Source of the DNA: Microbacterium testaceum
Lineage (GTDB): Bacteria; Actinomycetota; Actinomycetes; Actinomycetales; Microbacteriaceae
NCBI RefSeq assembly: GCF_029761935.1
Contig: NZ_CP121699.1
Span: forward strand, 3,316,023-3,380,022
DNA length: 64,000 nt
Reading direction: 5' to 3'
Below are positions 45,999 through 52,105 of this stretch, piece after piece. The notes under the pieces are model-generated. The model was not told the DNA's origin, did no database searches, and saw nothing but the letters and a program-made list of their open reading frames with translations. Positions within the stretch are counted from its first letter, which is position 1, and every line of letters starts with the position of its first letter. A program made the translations under genes and the position numbers.

Positions 45999-46040
45999 GA
46001 GCACGTACGCGCCGCGAGGCACGACCGAAGGAGGACCCTC

Positions 46041-46538
46041 ATGATCCGCACCACAGCCGTACCCCGTCCCGTCCGCATCGGCACCGCTCTGCTGGGTGTC
46101 GCCGGCATCGCCACCCTCGCCGGGTGCGCGGGCGGCGCGACCACCGGCGACGCCGCCCCCGCCGACACCGCGGCCCCCGCCGCGAGCTCGGCCCCCGCCA
46201 CGACCTCGGATGCCGCCGCCGGTGGCTCGACCGCGTCGGGCACCTACAAGGACGGCGAGTACGAGGCCACCGGCCAGTACGCGACGCCCGAGAGCGTCGA
46301 GACCATCGACGTCACCCTCACGATCGCCGGCGACACCGTGACCGCGGTGAAGGTGACCGGCGACCCGCAGGCCGCGGAGTCCAAGCGCTACCAGGGCGAG
46401 TTCATCGGCGGCATCCAGAGCGAGGTCGTGGGCAAGAAGCTCGACGAGATCTCGGTCAGCAAGGTGGCCGGTTCCTCGCTCACGAGCGGCGGCTTCACCA
46501 AGGCCGTCGACTCGATCAAGTCCGAGGCCAAGGCCTGA
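46041..46538 (+). CDS. FMN-binding domain lipoprotein (RnfG/NqrC-like)
   Basis: 165 residues. Lipoprotein signal with lipobox LAGC (C29), then an Ala/Thr/Ser-rich tether (residues 30-66) and one compact FMN_bind domain: YKDGEYEATGQYATPESVETIDVTLTI, VTAVKVTGDPQ, and SSLTSGGFTKAVDSIKSEA. T148 in SSLTSGG sits where the covalently flavinylated Thr lies in this family. ApbE, which attaches FMN to such threonines, is the next gene (5-bp gap). It would act as an extracytoplasmic one-flavin electron carrier. Spacing and content indicate an operon with ApbE and the membrane reductase. Confidence 0.85.
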   Translation: MIRTTAVPRPVRIGTALLGVAGIATLAGCAGGATTGDAAPADTAAPAASSAPATTSDAAAGGSTASGTYKDGEYEATGQYATPESVETIDVTLTIAGDTVTAVKVTGDPQAAESKRYQGEFIGGIQSEVVGKKLDEISVSKVAGSSLTSGGFTKAVDSIKSEAKA

Positions 46539-46543
46539 CAGCC

Positions 46544-47422
46544 ATGAGCACGCCGCTCGCCACGGGGTCGATCTGGACCTTCGACGCGATCGGTACGTCG
46601 TGGGCGATCGAGACGGCGCATCCGTTGCCCTCGGTCGCCCGCGACGCGGTGTCGACGCTCATCGAGCGGTTCGACCGCGAGTGGTCGCGATTCCGCGACG
46701 ACTCTCTCGTGTCTTCGCTCGCCGAGGGGCGTACCGCGTCGGTTCTTGCTCCTCGAGACGCGGATGCCATGTTCTCGCTCTACCGCGAGCTCGATGCGGC
46801 GACCTCCGGTGCCGTCAATCCGCTCGTCGGCGACGCGTTGGCGCGCCTGGGGTACGACGCCAGGTTGACCCTCGCTCCGTGGGGAGCGCCGCAGCCGGCG
46901 CCCACCTGGAGCGAGATCCTCACGTGGGACGACGACCACGTGCGGGTCACCGCTCCCGCCACCATCGACGTCGGAGCGCTCGGCAAAGGGCGGCTGGTCG
47001 ACCTGGTGCTCGACGCGGTGAGATCCCACGTGGACGGCGACGCCGTCGTCGACGCGTCGGGAGACCTCGCCGTCCGCGGGGCGCCCGTGCGCGTCGGTCT
47101 CGAGCACCCCTACGACCCGACCCGCGCCATCGGAGTGGTCACCGTGGCGGACCAGTCGCTCTGCGCCTCGGCCATCAATCGCCGCGCGTGGGGGGACGGT
47201 CTTCACCACGTCCTCGACGCCCGCACCGGTGCGCCCGTCCGGGCGTACGCCGCCACGTGGGCCCTCGCCGAGACGGCGATGCGCGCCGACGCCCTGGCCA
47301 CCGCGTTGTTCTTCGACGGTGGGCCCGAGTTGGCGGCATCCTGGAACGCCGAATGGGTGCGCATGCGCACCGACGGCCGCGTCGAGTGGTCTCCCGGCTT
47401 CTCCGGCGAGATCTTCTCCTGA
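46544..47422 (+). CDS. apbE: FAD:protein FMN transferase (ApbE family)
   Basis: 292 residues from ATG 46544. ApbE landmarks: TFDAIGTSWAIE near the start, FDREWSRFRDDSLVSSL, SGAVNPLVGDALARLGY, IDVGALGKGRLVDLVLD, VVDASGDLAVRG, and GLHHVLDARTGAPVRAYAATWALAETAMRADALATALF (HH..D.RTG metal/FAD region). It transfers FMN from FAD to a Thr in a (S/T)-x-x-T-type motif. No signal peptide is visible although the presumed target is a lipoprotein, so whether flavinylation happens before or after export is open. Confidence 0.9.
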   Translation: MSTPLATGSIWTFDAIGTSWAIETAHPLPSVARDAVSTLIERFDREWSRFRDDSLVSSLAEGRTASVLAPRDADAMFSLYRELDAATSGAVNPLVGDALARLGYDARLTLAPWGAPQPAPTWSEILTWDDDHVRVTAPATIDVGALGKGRLVDLVLDAVRSHVDGDAVVDASGDLAVRGAPVRVGLEHPYDPTRAIGVVTVADQSLCASAINRRAWGDGLHHVLDARTGAPVRAYAATWALAETAMRADALATALFFDGGPELAASWNAEWVRMRTDGRVEWSPGFSGEIFS

Positions 47423-47471
47423 GCCCGTCCTTCTCATCCCCCCTGTTTCGCCTCCCCTGAAGGGTTCCCCC

Positions 47472-49025
47472 ATGAGCACCACGCTCACCGCCGGCTCGAC
47501 CCGCGTCCTCGGCCTCATCGGTCGCGTCTCGATGTACCGGCTCGTCATGGCGTCGCTCGGTCTTCTCGCCGTGTTCTCGCTCGTCCTGTCGTTCGCGGGC
47601 CTCGTGGTCCCGCAGCCCCTGGCGATCGTCGCGAGCGCCGTGGTGCTCACCGCCGCGTGCGCCCTCACGGATCTCGTCGCGCAAAGTCTGCTCCGGATGC
47701 CGCGACGCCTGGAGTCCTCGCTGATCACGGCCGGGATCCTGTTGTTCGTCCTGCGTCCGTCGGTGGAGCCGATGGGCCTGGCCGGCCTCGTTCTCGCCGG
47801 TGTCGTGGCATCCGCCTCGAAATACGTGCTCGCCTGGCGCGGTCGGCACATCTTCAACCCCGCCGCGACCGGCGCGACCGTCTTGACGATCGTGAGCATC
47901 TGGGCGCCCGACCTGGGGTCTTCGGCGTGGTGGGTCGGTTCGCCGTGGCTCGCGGCACCCGTCCTGTTGCTGGGAGTGCTGCTTCTGCTCCGCACCGACA
48001 AACTGCCGATCGTGGTCGTCTTCTGGGTCGTCGCGATGGCCGTCGCCTTCCTCCGCACGAGCGTGCAGTTCCAGGCCGCGGGATTCCCGGTCGATGTGCC
48101 GAGCGTGCTGCTGCAGGTGGCGTTCTCCTCGCCTTTCCTGTTCCTGGGCGCGTTCATGCTGTCCGAGCCCCTGACCCTTCCGCCCCGTCGCGTGCAGCAG
48201 TATCTCGTGGCGATCGTCGTCGGCGTCCTGGCCGGGTGGCCGCTGCCAGTGGGCGAGATCACCCTCGGTCAGGAGCGCGCGCTGCTCGTCGGCAATCTGC
48301 TCGCCTTCCTGTTCTGCCTGCGCGCGGCCGTGCGCCTGCGCGTGGAACGTCGGCGCGATGTCACCCCGACGGTGCGCGAACTCTCGTTCCGGGCCGCCCG
48401 GCCCTTCTCGTTCCACCCCGGGCAGTACCTCGAACTGGACGTGCCGCACCGTCGCCCCGACGCCCGGGGCACGCGCCGCGAATTCTCGATCGTCTCGGCC
48501 CCGGAGGACCTGCCCGAGGTGCGGATCGCGTTCAAGGACGGCTCGCAGTCGTCGTACAAGCGCGCGCTGGCGGCCGTCGAGCCGGGCTCGACCCTCGCCG
48601 TCACGGGCGTCTGGGGCGACTTCGTCCTCCCCTCGCGGCCGACCTCGCCCGTCCTCCTGGTCGCCGCCGGCATCGGCGTGACCCCGTTCGTCTCGCAGCT
48701 GCGCCACCTCGTGGCGACGAACCAGGACCGCGACATCGTTCTCGTGTACGTGGTGTCCGAGGCGTCCGAGCTCGCCTTCCGCGACGAGATCGCCGCCGCG
48801 GGGATCCCCGTGATCGTCTTCTCGCGCGACGAGCCGCGCGATCTGCCCCAGCGCTGGGTGTGGGCCGGACCGGATCGAGTGGATGCCGAGGCGCTCCTGC
48901 GGACCGTCCCCGACATCGCACAGCGTGCCGCGTACGTCTCGGGCCCGCCGCGACTGATCTCGGCGCTCGCGCCCGCCCTGGGCAAGGCGAAGTCGCTGAC
49001 GACCGACGCGTTCGCGGGGTACTGA
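47472..49025 (+). CDS. RnfD/NqrB-like membrane protein fused to ferredoxin-reductase-type FAD/NAD(P) domain
   Basis: 517 residues; GAAGGG precedes the ATG. Residues 1-300 have about nine hydrophobic segments and the RnfD/NqrB-like signature GRHIFNPAATGATVLTI (N129-T136). A Thr in a GAT context is where NqrB/RnfD carry covalent FMN. Residues about 300-517 form a ferredoxin-NADP reductase-like module: FHPGQYLELDVP, RREFSIVSAPEDLPEVRIAFKDG (FAD), VTGVWGDF, LLVAAGIGVTPFVSQLRHL (nucleotide binding) and YVSGPPRLI. It would pass electrons from cytosolic NAD(P)H via membrane flavin to the outside FMN lipoprotein encoded two genes upstream. Confidence 0.85.
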   Translation: MSTTLTAGSTRVLGLIGRVSMYRLVMASLGLLAVFSLVLSFAGLVVPQPLAIVASAVVLTAACALTDLVAQSLLRMPRRLESSLITAGILLFVLRPSVEPMGLAGLVLAGVVASASKYVLAWRGRHIFNPAATGATVLTIVSIWAPDLGSSAWWVGSPWLAAPVLLLGVLLLLRTDKLPIVVVFWVVAMAVAFLRTSVQFQAAGFPVDVPSVLLQVAFSSPFLFLGAFMLSEPLTLPPRRVQQYLVAIVVGVLAGWPLPVGEITLGQERALLVGNLLAFLFCLRAAVRLRVERRRDVTPTVRELSFRAARPFSFHPGQYLELDVPHRRPDARGTRREFSIVSAPEDLPEVRIAFKDGSQSSYKRALAAVEPGSTLAVTGVWGDFVLPSRPTSPVLLVAAGIGVTPFVSQLRHLVATNQDRDIVLVYVVSEASELAFRDEIAAAGIPVIVFSRDEPRDLPQRWVWAGPDRVDAEALLRTVPDIAQRAAYVSGPPRLISALAPALGKAKSLTTDAFAGY

Positions 49026-49079: not shown

Positions 49080-49565
49080 GTGTCGGAGGTCATCGCGCGG
49101 GGCGAGAACCTCGTCATCGCGCTGACGGGCGTGCGGATCTTCTCCGACGGCGTCGAACTTCTTACCGAGCGGCACCTGCGGCGCGGGACGGCCGACGAAC
49201 GCGGCTGGCGCGAGATGCACGGAATGTTCGCCGAGCACTGGGGAAGGGCGCCGCTGACGCCCGAGCGGCTGCGCTGGGGCCTCGTGCTCGGCGACGGCAC
49301 GCGGCTCTTCGCTGAGGACCGCTTCGGGGCCCCGGCTGACGGCGTGGACGGCGGCGCCTCCGTGCGGGTGAACGGCGGGAGCGGCAGCGGGGACGACCAC
49401 CGCTACACCATGCGCAGCCAGCTCTGGCTGCACCCGCTACCCCCGGAGGGTCCGCTCGAACTCGTCGTCCAGTGGCCCGCGTTCGGCGTTCCCGAGTCGC
49501 GGGTCATCCTCGACGGGGGAGCGATGAGCGCTCTCGCAGCGAGCGTGCGGCCGCTCTGGGGGTGA
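49080..49565 (+). CDS. conserved hypothetical protein of actinobacteria
   Basis: 161 residues from GTG 49080 (GGAG 5 nt upstream); GTG 49041 would add 13 residues without a ribosome-binding site. Sequence runs ENLVIALTGVRIFSDGVELLTERHLRR, EHWGRAPLTPERLRWGLVLGDGTRLF, SQLWLHPLPPEGPLELVVQWPAFGVPES, suggesting an all-beta soluble fold. I cannot assign a function. No signal peptide. It follows the flavin operon by 54 bp but need not belong to it. Confidence 0.75.
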   Translation: MSEVIARGENLVIALTGVRIFSDGVELLTERHLRRGTADERGWREMHGMFAEHWGRAPLTPERLRWGLVLGDGTRLFAEDRFGAPADGVDGGASVRVNGGSGSGDDHRYTMRSQLWLHPLPPEGPLELVVQWPAFGVPESRVILDGGAMSALAASVRPLWG

Positions 49566-49723
49566 AGCGCGCTCGGAGGGCCGTCGCGGTGCTCGCGACG
49601 GTGGCGAACGACGTCGACCGCACCGGTACCGTCTACGACGGCCCCCGCGCGCCCGACATCGAGGTCGCGCCCGGTCCCGACCTCGAGGCGGCGCGGACGG
49701 CGGTCAGATCGCGGTGCGCCTGA
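49562..49723 (+). CDS. possible small protein (53 aa) coupled to the preceding gene
   Basis: GTG 49562 overlaps the previous stop (GTGA) and opens a 53-codon frame with about 92% GC3, as in proven genes here. The product is KRARRAVAVLATVANDVDRTG... with an acidic, Pro-containing C-terminal half and no recognised domain. It is convergent with the kinase gene (19-bp gap). Frame quality supports coding; homologues were not checked. Confidence 0.5.
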   Translation: MKRARRAVAVLATVANDVDRTGTVYDGPRAPDIEVAPGPDLEAARTAVRSRCA

Positions 49724-49742: not shown

Positions 49743-51365
49743 TCAGACCGTGTCCGCGATTACCGGATCCGCGGGCTTCGCCGGGAGGCGCACCTCGAAG
49801 GTCGTGTCGCCGGGAGTGCTCGTGACCGAGATCGTTCCGCGGTGGGCGTCGACGATCGCCCGCGCGATCGACAGGCCCAGGCCGGTACCGCCGGTCTTGC
49901 GGTCGCGCGAGCGATCGGCGCGGGCGAACCGCTCGAAGAGCTGCGAGGCGACCGAGGGATCGATGCCGGGACCGTTGTCGTGCACCCGGAGCACGGCCTC
50001 GGCGCCCTCGTGCGCCACCGACACGTCGACCTCGCTGCCCGCGGGCGTGTGCGTGCGGGCGTTGGCGAGCAGGTTCGCCACGACCTGGTGCAGGCGTGCG
50101 GCGTCTCCGGCGAGCTCGACGGGGGTGTCGGGCACGTCGATCGTCCACGAATGGTCGGGGCCGGCGGGGCGCGCATCTCCGACGGCCTCGACCGCCAGTC
50201 GCGTGAGGTCGACCGAACCGTAGACGAGCTCCTGCCCCTCGTCGAGGCGCGCGAGCAGAAGCAGATCCTCCACGAGCGTAGTCATGCGCAGGGACTGCGC
50301 CTGGATGCGCTCGAGCGACTGCTCGGTGGTCTCGACGGCCAGAGAGATGCGCTGGCGACTCTCGTCGTCCTGCGCCTGACGCATGGCGCGCAGCGACAGC
50401 TCCGAGAAGCCGCGAATGGATGCCAGGGGCGTACGCAGTTCGTGGCTGGCGTCGGCGACGAACCGGCGCATCAGCTCTTCGTTGCGCTGGCGGGCGCTGA
50501 GGGAGGCGTCGACGCGGTCGAGAAGGGTGTTCAGGGCCGTGCCGACCTGACCGATCTCGGTGTGGTCGTCGACCTGATCGGCGGGCACGCGCTCGGTGAT
50601 CGAGACGTCGCCCTGATCCATGCGCAGCGACGCCACGCGGGTGGCCGTCTCGGCGACGGCGCGCAGCGGCCGGAGTCCCAGCCGGATGACGATCGCGATG
50701 ATGACGGCGAGGAGCAGCAGGCCGCCCGTGGTGACCAGGGCGACGGTGGTCAGGATCGCGCCGATGGTGCTGGTGACGCTCGAGAGGGGGAGACCGACCA
50801 AGAAGATGCTGTCGCTGCCGGGCGTCTGGAACGGGCGGACGAGGTACTCGCCGAGGTTCGGCAGGTCGACGGTCTGGGCGTTCGGGTCGGCGGCTGCGGC
50901 CTGCAGGCTGTCGGCGATCCGGCCGAGGTCGTCGGTGGTGAGCGCGCGCGCTCCGTTGTCACCGACCACGGCGCCCGTGATGCCCGTGCCGCGCGAGTTC
51001 ATGACGAGCAGGGTGCCGGAGTCGAAGAACCCCGACTCGAGAACCTGTTCCGCCGAACTCTGGAAGGCGGCACGCGGTTGGATGGACGCGGCCGCCTCGT
51101 CGACCTGGGCGCCGAGGTTGACGTAGAGCACCTGAGTGAGGATGGCGCTGGTCGAGATCCCGATCATCACGAGGATGAAGGCGACCATGCCGATGACGGC
51201 GGTCATCAAGCGCGCCTGGAGAGTCCAGGGGCGACGGAGCCTCAGCGACAGAGGCTCCTTCTTAGGTCTGGGGGTGGACTCCTGTTCGGAATCGGCGTCG
51301 GGGGCGTCGGTCTCCCAGACCTCCGCGGGGGGAACAGGGGGAGCTGGTCGCGGCGGGGTACTCAC
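49743..51365 (-). CDS. two-component sensor histidine kinase, HisKA/HAMP type
   Basis: 540 residues from GTG 51365, which overlaps the regulator's stop. A Pro-rich acidic cytoplasmic tail, TM1 (LMTAVIGMVAFILVMIGISTSAIL), an extracytoplasmic sensor of about 140 residues, TM2 (ILTTVALVTTGGLLLLAVIIAIVI), HAMP, H-box RRFVADASHELRTPLAS with H308, N-box LHQVVANLLANARTHT, and G boxes VHDNGPGIDP and GTGLGLSIARAIVDAHRG. It resembles actinobacterial TcrY/MprB-type envelope kinases. Partner is the coupled OmpR-type regulator; signal unknown. Confidence 0.93.
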   Translation of the reverse strand: MSTPPRPAPPVPPAEVWETDAPDADSEQESTPRPKKEPLSLRLRRPWTLQARLMTAVIGMVAFILVMIGISTSAILTQVLYVNLGAQVDEAAASIQPRAAFQSSAEQVLESGFFDSGTLLVMNSRGTGITGAVVGDNGARALTTDDLGRIADSLQAAAADPNAQTVDLPNLGEYLVRPFQTPGSDSIFLVGLPLSSVTSTIGAILTTVALVTTGGLLLLAVIIAIVIRLGLRPLRAVAETATRVASLRMDQGDVSITERVPADQVDDHTEIGQVGTALNTLLDRVDASLSARQRNEELMRRFVADASHELRTPLASIRGFSELSLRAMRQAQDDESRQRISLAVETTEQSLERIQAQSLRMTTLVEDLLLLARLDEGQELVYGSVDLTRLAVEAVGDARPAGPDHSWTIDVPDTPVELAGDAARLHQVVANLLANARTHTPAGSEVDVSVAHEGAEAVLRVHDNGPGIDPSVASQLFERFARADRSRDRKTGGTGLGLSIARAIVDAHRGTISVTSTPGDTTFEVRLPAKPADPVIADTV

Positions 51366-52105
51366 TGAGGGGCTTTGATCATGTAGCCCACGCCGCGCAC
51401 GGTGTGGATGAGCGGGTCGTTCCCGGCGTCGATCTTCTTCCGCAGGTACGAGATGTAGAGCTCGACGACGCTGGACCGACCGCCGAAGTCGTAGTTCCAC
51501 ACGCGATCGAGGATCTGCGCCTTCGACACCACGCGGCGCTGGTTGCGCATGAGGAAGCGCAGCAGTTCGAACTCGGTGGCGGTGAGCTCGATCTCCTTGC
51601 CGCCGCGGATGACCTCGTGGCTGTCCTCGTTCAGCGAGAGGTCGCCGACGCGGAGGATCGGCTCCGAGTCGCGCGTCAAGGCCGTGCCGGCGCGACGCAT
51701 GAGCCCCCGCAGACGCGCGACGACCTCTTCGAGGCTGAACGGCTTGGTGACGTAGTCGTCGCCGCCGGCGGTCAGACCCGCGACGCGATCGGCCACGGCA
51801 TCTTTCGCGGTGAGGAAGAGCACGGGCACGTCGTTGCCCGAGTGGCGCAGGCGCTGGAGGACGGCCATGCCGTCGAGGTCGGGCATCATGATGTCGAGCA
51901 CCATGGCATCCGGCTCGAAATCGCGCGCGGACTGCAGGGCGTCGAAGCCCGATCCGGCGGTCTTGACGTCCCAGCCCTCCATGCGCAGCGCCATCGACAG
52001 CAGGTCGGTGAGCATCTGCTCGTCGTCCACGACGAGGACGCGGAGGGCACTTCCGTCGGGGCGGGTGAAGGTGGGGGCGGCGGCGGTCGCGGTCATAGAA
52101 CTCAT
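51362..52105 (-). CDS. OmpR/PhoB-type response regulator
   Basis: 247 residues. Receiver domain: VLVVDDEQMLTD acidic pair, phospho-acceptor D71 in AMVLDIMMPDLDG, FLTAKDAVADR and Lys in DYVTKPFSLEE. C-terminal winged helix: ELTATEFELLRFLMRNQRRVVSKAQILDRVW and SSVVELYISYLRKKIDAG ... HTVRGVGYMIKAP. Start ATG 52105 overlaps the VanZ stop (ATGA); ATG 52096 is also in frame. CATAGA direct repeats with 11-bp period stand 12-29 nt upstream and may be its own binding site. Confidence 0.94.
   Translation of the reverse strand: MSSMTATAAAPTFTRPDGSALRVLVVDDEQMLTDLLSMALRMEGWDVKTAGSGFDALQSARDFEPDAMVLDIMMPDLDGMAVLQRLRHSGNDVPVLFLTAKDAVADRVAGLTAGGDDYVTKPFSLEEVVARLRGLMRRAGTALTRDSEPILRVGDLSLNEDSHEVIRGGKEIELTATEFELLRFLMRNQRRVVSKAQILDRVWNYDFGGRSSVVELYISYLRKKIDAGNDPLIHTVRGVGYMIKAPQ

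Follow-up and report, generated by a model that had tools for sequence, protein, structure and literature searches.

The window analysed here is a stretch of 64,000 nucleotides from the genome of Microbacterium testaceum, which consists of a single contig of 3.38 Mb. Three genes follow one another in close succession on its + strand, encoding a 165-aa FMN_bind lipoprotein (46041-46538), a 292-aa ApbE FMN transferase (46544-47422; Pfam PF02424, E 4e-35) and a single 517-aa protein (47472-49025), in which an RnfD/NqrB-like membrane half (residues 20-285, 47529-48326) is joined to an FAD/NAD(P)H reductase half of the FAD_binding_6/NAD_binding_1 type (residues 286-517, 48327-49022). The closest named relative found was M. 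testaceum StLB037, whose fusion protein is 99% identical. The lipoprotein gene is preceded by a likely ribosome-binding site, AAGGAGG (46028-46034, + strand), well kept in an alignment of 34 upstream regions (the window and 33 relatives). Upstream of the operon, no sigma-70-like promoter was found with four or fewer mismatches over the 12 positions of the -35 and -10 hexamers, and the best match to a DtxR/IdeR-like box had 10 mismatches out of 19. A histidine kinase and response regulator pair lies downstream on the - strand (49743-52105) and is PhoRB/MtrAB-like by score, below the curated cut-offs.

The lipoprotein is composed of a Sec-type lipoprotein signal, a linker rich in Ser, Thr and Ala, and an FMN_bind domain at approximately residues 70-165. 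Its FMN_bind Pfam score was 19.1 bits, below the cut-off of 22, and Foldseek returned nothing at E 0.001, the top match being 8p2a at 0.0045. A second structure comparison did recover the FMN_bind fold, but IscU-like and lipoyl-ligase domains scored near FMN_bind in that comparison. A lipobox was present in 104 of 106 lipoproteins of this type, as judged by a simple pattern only, and the one studied here carries its Cys29 (LAGC, 46125-46127). A twin-Arg-like pattern, again a pattern only, was seen in 2/104, so that the signals are of the Sec type.

Domains, folds and gene order bear out the original prediction of a three-gene flavin cassette with a reductase-RnfD/NqrB fusion. For the fusion protein itself, a profile check had been proposed, and it succeeded for the reductase half, where the PF00175 NAD-binding domain at the C-terminus scored 27.6 bits against a cut-off of 22, and failed for the membrane half, which fell below the Pfam cut-off (PF03116) and was yet assigned the RnfD fold by structure comparison, the remainder of the protein giving reductase folds. 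It should be noted that reductases took up the whole Foldseek list obtained with the fusion, and that the RnfD match came from the second structure comparison. A search of the whole genome with PF03116, the only profile of NQR/Rnf subunits used on that scale, gave a match at 654 kb, which was discarded as a second RnfD-like protein because it falls on a DUF308 protein.

The membrane half appears to have no covalently bound flavin of its own. The segment that carries the flavinylated Thr in RnfD (DAVTTATPL-like) was missing from every one of the 14 fusions when these were aligned with three canonical RnfDs (three of the five canonical rows fetched were used, L155 and L156 being left out because their reading frame was wrong). 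Thr136 (47877-47879), in the TGAT of the motif FNPAATGAT, had been suggested to sit in a flavin site; this suggestion was not upheld, since the residue is variable and belongs to a helix predicted at 130-144, and the motif around it aligns with the FNPA region of RnfD. Of the 113 fusions readable at the 115 loci, 56 have T at this position, 12 have S and 45 have A, V, L, F or Y, and the surrounding pattern [ST]GA[ST] occurs in 26/113. A fusion of this kind without the covalent-flavin Thr agrees with what is reported in the consulted part of Huang et al. (PMC10979944).

Within the family, the fusion is common. It was found essentially full length, as a single stretch, in 114 of 299 sampled Microbacteriaceae genomes, while in four more the match was split or partial but covered the membrane half. 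Of the six genomes from the genus of the window, five have the fusion. In a sample of the whole phylum, such a match was present in 8/396 genomes, namely the source genome, two of its genus and five others, one of which (G593) carries an in-frame stop. An in-frame TAA interrupts a relative's fusion at L043 / L218, where the neighbouring lipoprotein and apbE genes are otherwise conserved. When a relative from another lineage (L041) was used as query, 7611 of the 7999 candidates scored were proteins matching at E 0.001; the best 120 of these matches were long, and some were named as Saccharimonadales, Parcubacteria, Falkowbacteria, Lloydbacteria or Humimicrobiaceae. These names are in line with the range described for NQR/RNF-like flavinylation systems, which are, according to the text consulted, mainly found in Actinobacteria and the candidate phyla radiation (PMC8238504).

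The three genes also tend to stay together. At the 115 loci (that of the window included), tblastn detected ApbE 109 times and the lipoprotein 106 times, in the same order lipoprotein-apbE-fusion, as expected from the proposed linkage of FMN_bind and ApbE genes with the fusion. Some of the absences are accounted for by the sequences available: the lipoprotein was missed at contig ends in L019 and L088, and both genes at a contig end in L144; in L041 and L042 both genes are present on inspection by eye, as divergent relatives missed by tblastn; and in L040 a longer stretch (L172) shows that the lipoprotein gene precedes apbE by about 2.6 kb, with further ORFs in the intervening sequence. Two further loci (L212 and L217) have the lipoprotein and the fusion with no apbE between them, and an ApbE elsewhere in the genome. 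The exceptions to the linkage are three Microbacterium loci (L128, L130 and L141) that have neither lipoprotein nor apbE.

In L128 and L130 an intact fusion lies between prs and a histidine-kinase gene, and the L130 genome, whose completeness was not given, yielded no ApbE at E 1 and, for FMN_bind, a single match of 12 bits, below the cut-off. Such lineages would be explained if the fusion acted at the membrane mainly to reduce quinones or small flavins with NAD(P)H, with the lipoprotein as a dispensable later electron carrier. This reading appears distinctly unlikely, considering that the three genes are found together at most loci, that the exceptions may be recent losses (the fusion of L141 itself looks frameshifted, its match spanning 1558 bases), and that the L128 and L141 genomes have a further FMN_bind/ApbE pair elsewhere.

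The surroundings of the cassette were surveyed through 63 ORFs picked by hand out of 175, from 29 of 30 regions (none from L172), and no recurring candidate for an electron acceptor was found among them. Likewise, no further NQR/Rnf subunit was recognized by Pfam among six neighbours in the window, nor, for the 63 neighbours in relatives, among the 25 families listed out of 77. The commonest neighbour family among those listed was NAD(P)H-hydrate dehydratase, encoded just upstream on the same strand in 6/63 cases (L159, L160, L165, L170, L177 and L215). Because four or five further neighbours are shared along with it, it is probably part of a common chromosomal context, although it may be tied to NAD(P)H repair. 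In a reduced Microbacteriaceae genome of 1.4 Mb (L176:3827-9195), a ZnuA/ABC/ABC-3 metal transporter is encoded directly upstream of lipoprotein-apbE-fusion; ZnuA matched one of the 63 scanned neighbours, and this arrangement is a possible hint of a metal-related role. Finally, the hypothetical proteins at 49080-49723 had been put forward as possible extras of the system. The ORF at 49080-49565 was rejected as a component and looks unrelated, since the 161-aa protein of unknown family that it encodes is present at only 13 of the 115 loci (that of the window included), all from close Microbacterium relatives.

The ApbE protein has the conserved features of a flavin transferase. Ser209, His222 and Asp249 are present at 109/109 loci and in 8/8 canonical ApbEs of the phylum, K148 of the Lys-Gly motif at 108/109 loci and in 8/8 canonical ApbEs, and Thr253 is likewise conserved. 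From their motif context, and without an alignment to the Vibrio protein, the first three are taken to be the Asp-Ser-His triad described for Vibrio ApbE (PMC12052999, consulted in part).

The absence of a signal peptide from ApbE, and the resulting question about the compartment of flavinylation, held across the orthologues examined. The N-terminus begins at the domain itself, and neither a hydrophobic signal segment nor a membrane anchor was seen at any of the 97 loci with an assignable start (12 of the 109 were not judgeable); of the divergent relatives L041 and L042, the ApbE of L041, the one readable to its start, also begins at its domain. As a control for signal detection, the 30 best-scoring ApbEs of the phylum sample were taken, a choice that biases the set towards canonical ApbEs. 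After leaving out L179 and L192 (contig ends), 24 of the 28 readable ones had such a segment, one of them borderline (L203, 1.61); L197 passes the numeric threshold inside the domain and was not counted.

According to the part of PMC12052999 consulted, most characterized ApbEs are secreted lipoproteins that act on secreted targets, and on this precedent the enzyme might be exported by a non-classical route and flavinylate the lipoprotein outside the cell, as in Listeria. We consider this unlikely in view of the marked difference between the signal-less ApbEs studied here and the phylum controls. The same source describes cytosolic ApbEs, e.g. for the soluble fumarate reductase of Klebsiella, and reports that a seven-residue motif suffices for ApbE; it is therefore possible that ApbE modifies the unfolded lipoprotein precursor in the cytosol. 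Because the enzyme has no recognizable export signal, modification before or during Sec export is what we infer. Our tentative proposal, for which we claim less than even odds, is that the Microbacteriaceae lipoprotein would be flavinylated in the cytosol on a Ser of its divergent GSS motif, by a soluble ApbE that draws on cytosolic FAD, and would then pass through Sec with the flavin attached. If this is true, cytosolic flavinylation would remove the need for FAD export and break the rule that flavoproteins at the surface receive their flavin outside; a signal-less ApbE acting in the cytosol would show how a Gram-positive bacterium makes surface flavoproteins without exporting FAD. A limited literature search, in sources seen in part, found no published cytosolic ApbE acting on an exported FMN_bind protein.

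As for the acceptor residue, the segment GSSLTS is kept in 106/106 lipoproteins, and both Ser146 (46476-46478, in AGSS-LTS) and Thr148 (46482-46484) are invariant. Thr148 had been proposed as the flavinylated residue, within SSLTSGG. However, when the lipoprotein was aligned with a second FMN_bind protein of the same genome (SGATYTS versus AGSSLTS), Ser146, and not Thr148, was in register with the Thr of SGAT, and the alignment with 8p2a placed Ser146 on the SGAT Thr as well. Thr148 is thus found two residues past the flavinylated Thr, matching the second Thr of these two canonical proteins. The 8p2a alignment depends on a weak profile match (E 0.1), ranking below LpqN matches that cover the signal and linker only, which speaks for Thr148, as do its invariance and the preference of ApbE for Thr as acceptor noted in the portion of PMC12052999 consulted. 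On balance, a flavin on Thr148 seems very unlikely, and Ser146 is, from the alignments, the more likely acceptor.

The lipoproteins do not match the ApbE substrate motif D-x-x-[ST]-G-A-[ST] exactly: all 106 read [S/D/T/H]-x-x-[A/S/G]-G-S-S, and only the G and the terminal hydroxyl residue fit the canonical motif throughout. The FMN_bind proteins of L041 and L042 carry the canonical GAT. If Ser146 is the acceptor, the substrate motif needs widening, and searches requiring GA[ST] would miss this clade.

Taken together, the cassette is best explained as an NQR/RNF-like flavinylation system that moves electrons from NAD(P)H to the outside through a lipoprotein carrying covalent FMN, a reading to which we assign a probability of roughly 0.85. 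Cytosolic NAD(P)H would reduce the FAD of the reductase half at the C-terminus of the fusion; the electrons would then reach a flavin bound non-covalently in the RnfD-like membrane half and, after it, the FMN covalently bound to the lipoprotein at the outer face, probably on Ser146, to which the operon's own ApbE would have attached it. The lipoprotein would in turn reduce an acceptor outside the membrane, for which ferric iron or another small oxidant would suffice. Several observations count against this explanation, i.e. the departure of the acceptor motif from the canonical one at several positions together with the Thr preference of ApbE, the combination of a signal-less ApbE with a Sec lipoprotein, which is at odds with extracytosolic flavinylation as usually understood, the lack of a recurring acceptor candidate among the neighbours scanned, and the lineages (L128 and L130) in which the fusion stands at its locus with neither lipoprotein nor apbE, the L130 genome giving no ApbE at E 1.

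Among known systems, Na+-NQR and Rnf share with the cassette the RnfD fold, an FMN_bind domain related to NqrC/RnfG, ApbE and an NqrF-like reductase fold. They are, however, full subunit sets encoded together, with a second transmembrane path, whereas the cassette has one transmembrane path only, a fused reductase, no RnfD segment bearing the flavinylated Thr, and no further NQR/Rnf subunit recognized alongside. Extracellular electron transfer in Listeria is similar in that a surface lipoprotein carrying flavin is fed by cytosolic reducing power. The Listeria system is made up of the separate proteins Ndh2, PplA and FmnB and includes a quinone step, and FmnB is an extracytosolic ApbE that needs flavin trafficking across the membrane. 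This description is partly drawn from the consulted portion of PMC12052999. The cassette differs from it in having a fused reductase-membrane protein and a signal-less ApbE.

The MsrQ-like systems of Actinobacteria also combine FMN_bind and ApbE with a membrane protein that ends in a reductase, but their membrane part is a haem-binding domain of the ferric-reductase type, PF01794 (PMC8238504, seen in part). One such cluster is present in the same genome outside the window (L229:2010-4763, about 811.0-813.8 kb), with a PF01794 membrane protein that has a reductase half and an ApbE that also begins at its domain, without signal peptide; its FMN_bind protein has the canonical SGAT (SGATYTS), unlike the lipoprotein of the cassette.

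The closest counterpart is the group of NQR/RNF-like flavinylation systems defined by Meheust et al. (2021, eLife; PMC8238504), of which, on sequence and predicted fold, the cassette is a member. In the text consulted, these are clusters with FMN_bind and/or ApbE genes in which an RnfD/NqrB-like membrane domain is fused to an NAD-binding reductase, with Actinobacteria named as one of their two principal groups; at least one product has a signal peptide or a lipidation site, which here is the lipobox Cys29 (by pattern) of the FMN_bind-fold lipoprotein. The membrane half without the covalent-flavin Thr and the one-way model of NAD(P)H-to-outside transfer are common to both (PMC8238504, PMC10979944). 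The suggestion that electrons move from NAD(P)H to the outside was thus right in kind and coincides with the published interpretation, and the implied novelty of the fusion does not stand, since the fusion was described beside FMN_bind and ApbE in 2021 (PMC8238504), and a model of a relative followed in 2024 (PMC10979944). With the architecture already published, the cassette mainly extends the known range, as a system common within a single actinobacterial family (114-118 of 299 sampled genomes). It differs from the published systems in a membrane half below the Pfam cut-off, in an FMN_bind acceptor motif that reads GSS and not GAT, and, as far as the text consulted shows, in the signal-less ApbE of this clade. 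The revised acceptor residue and the lack of a signal on the clade's ApbE are the features that merit testing.
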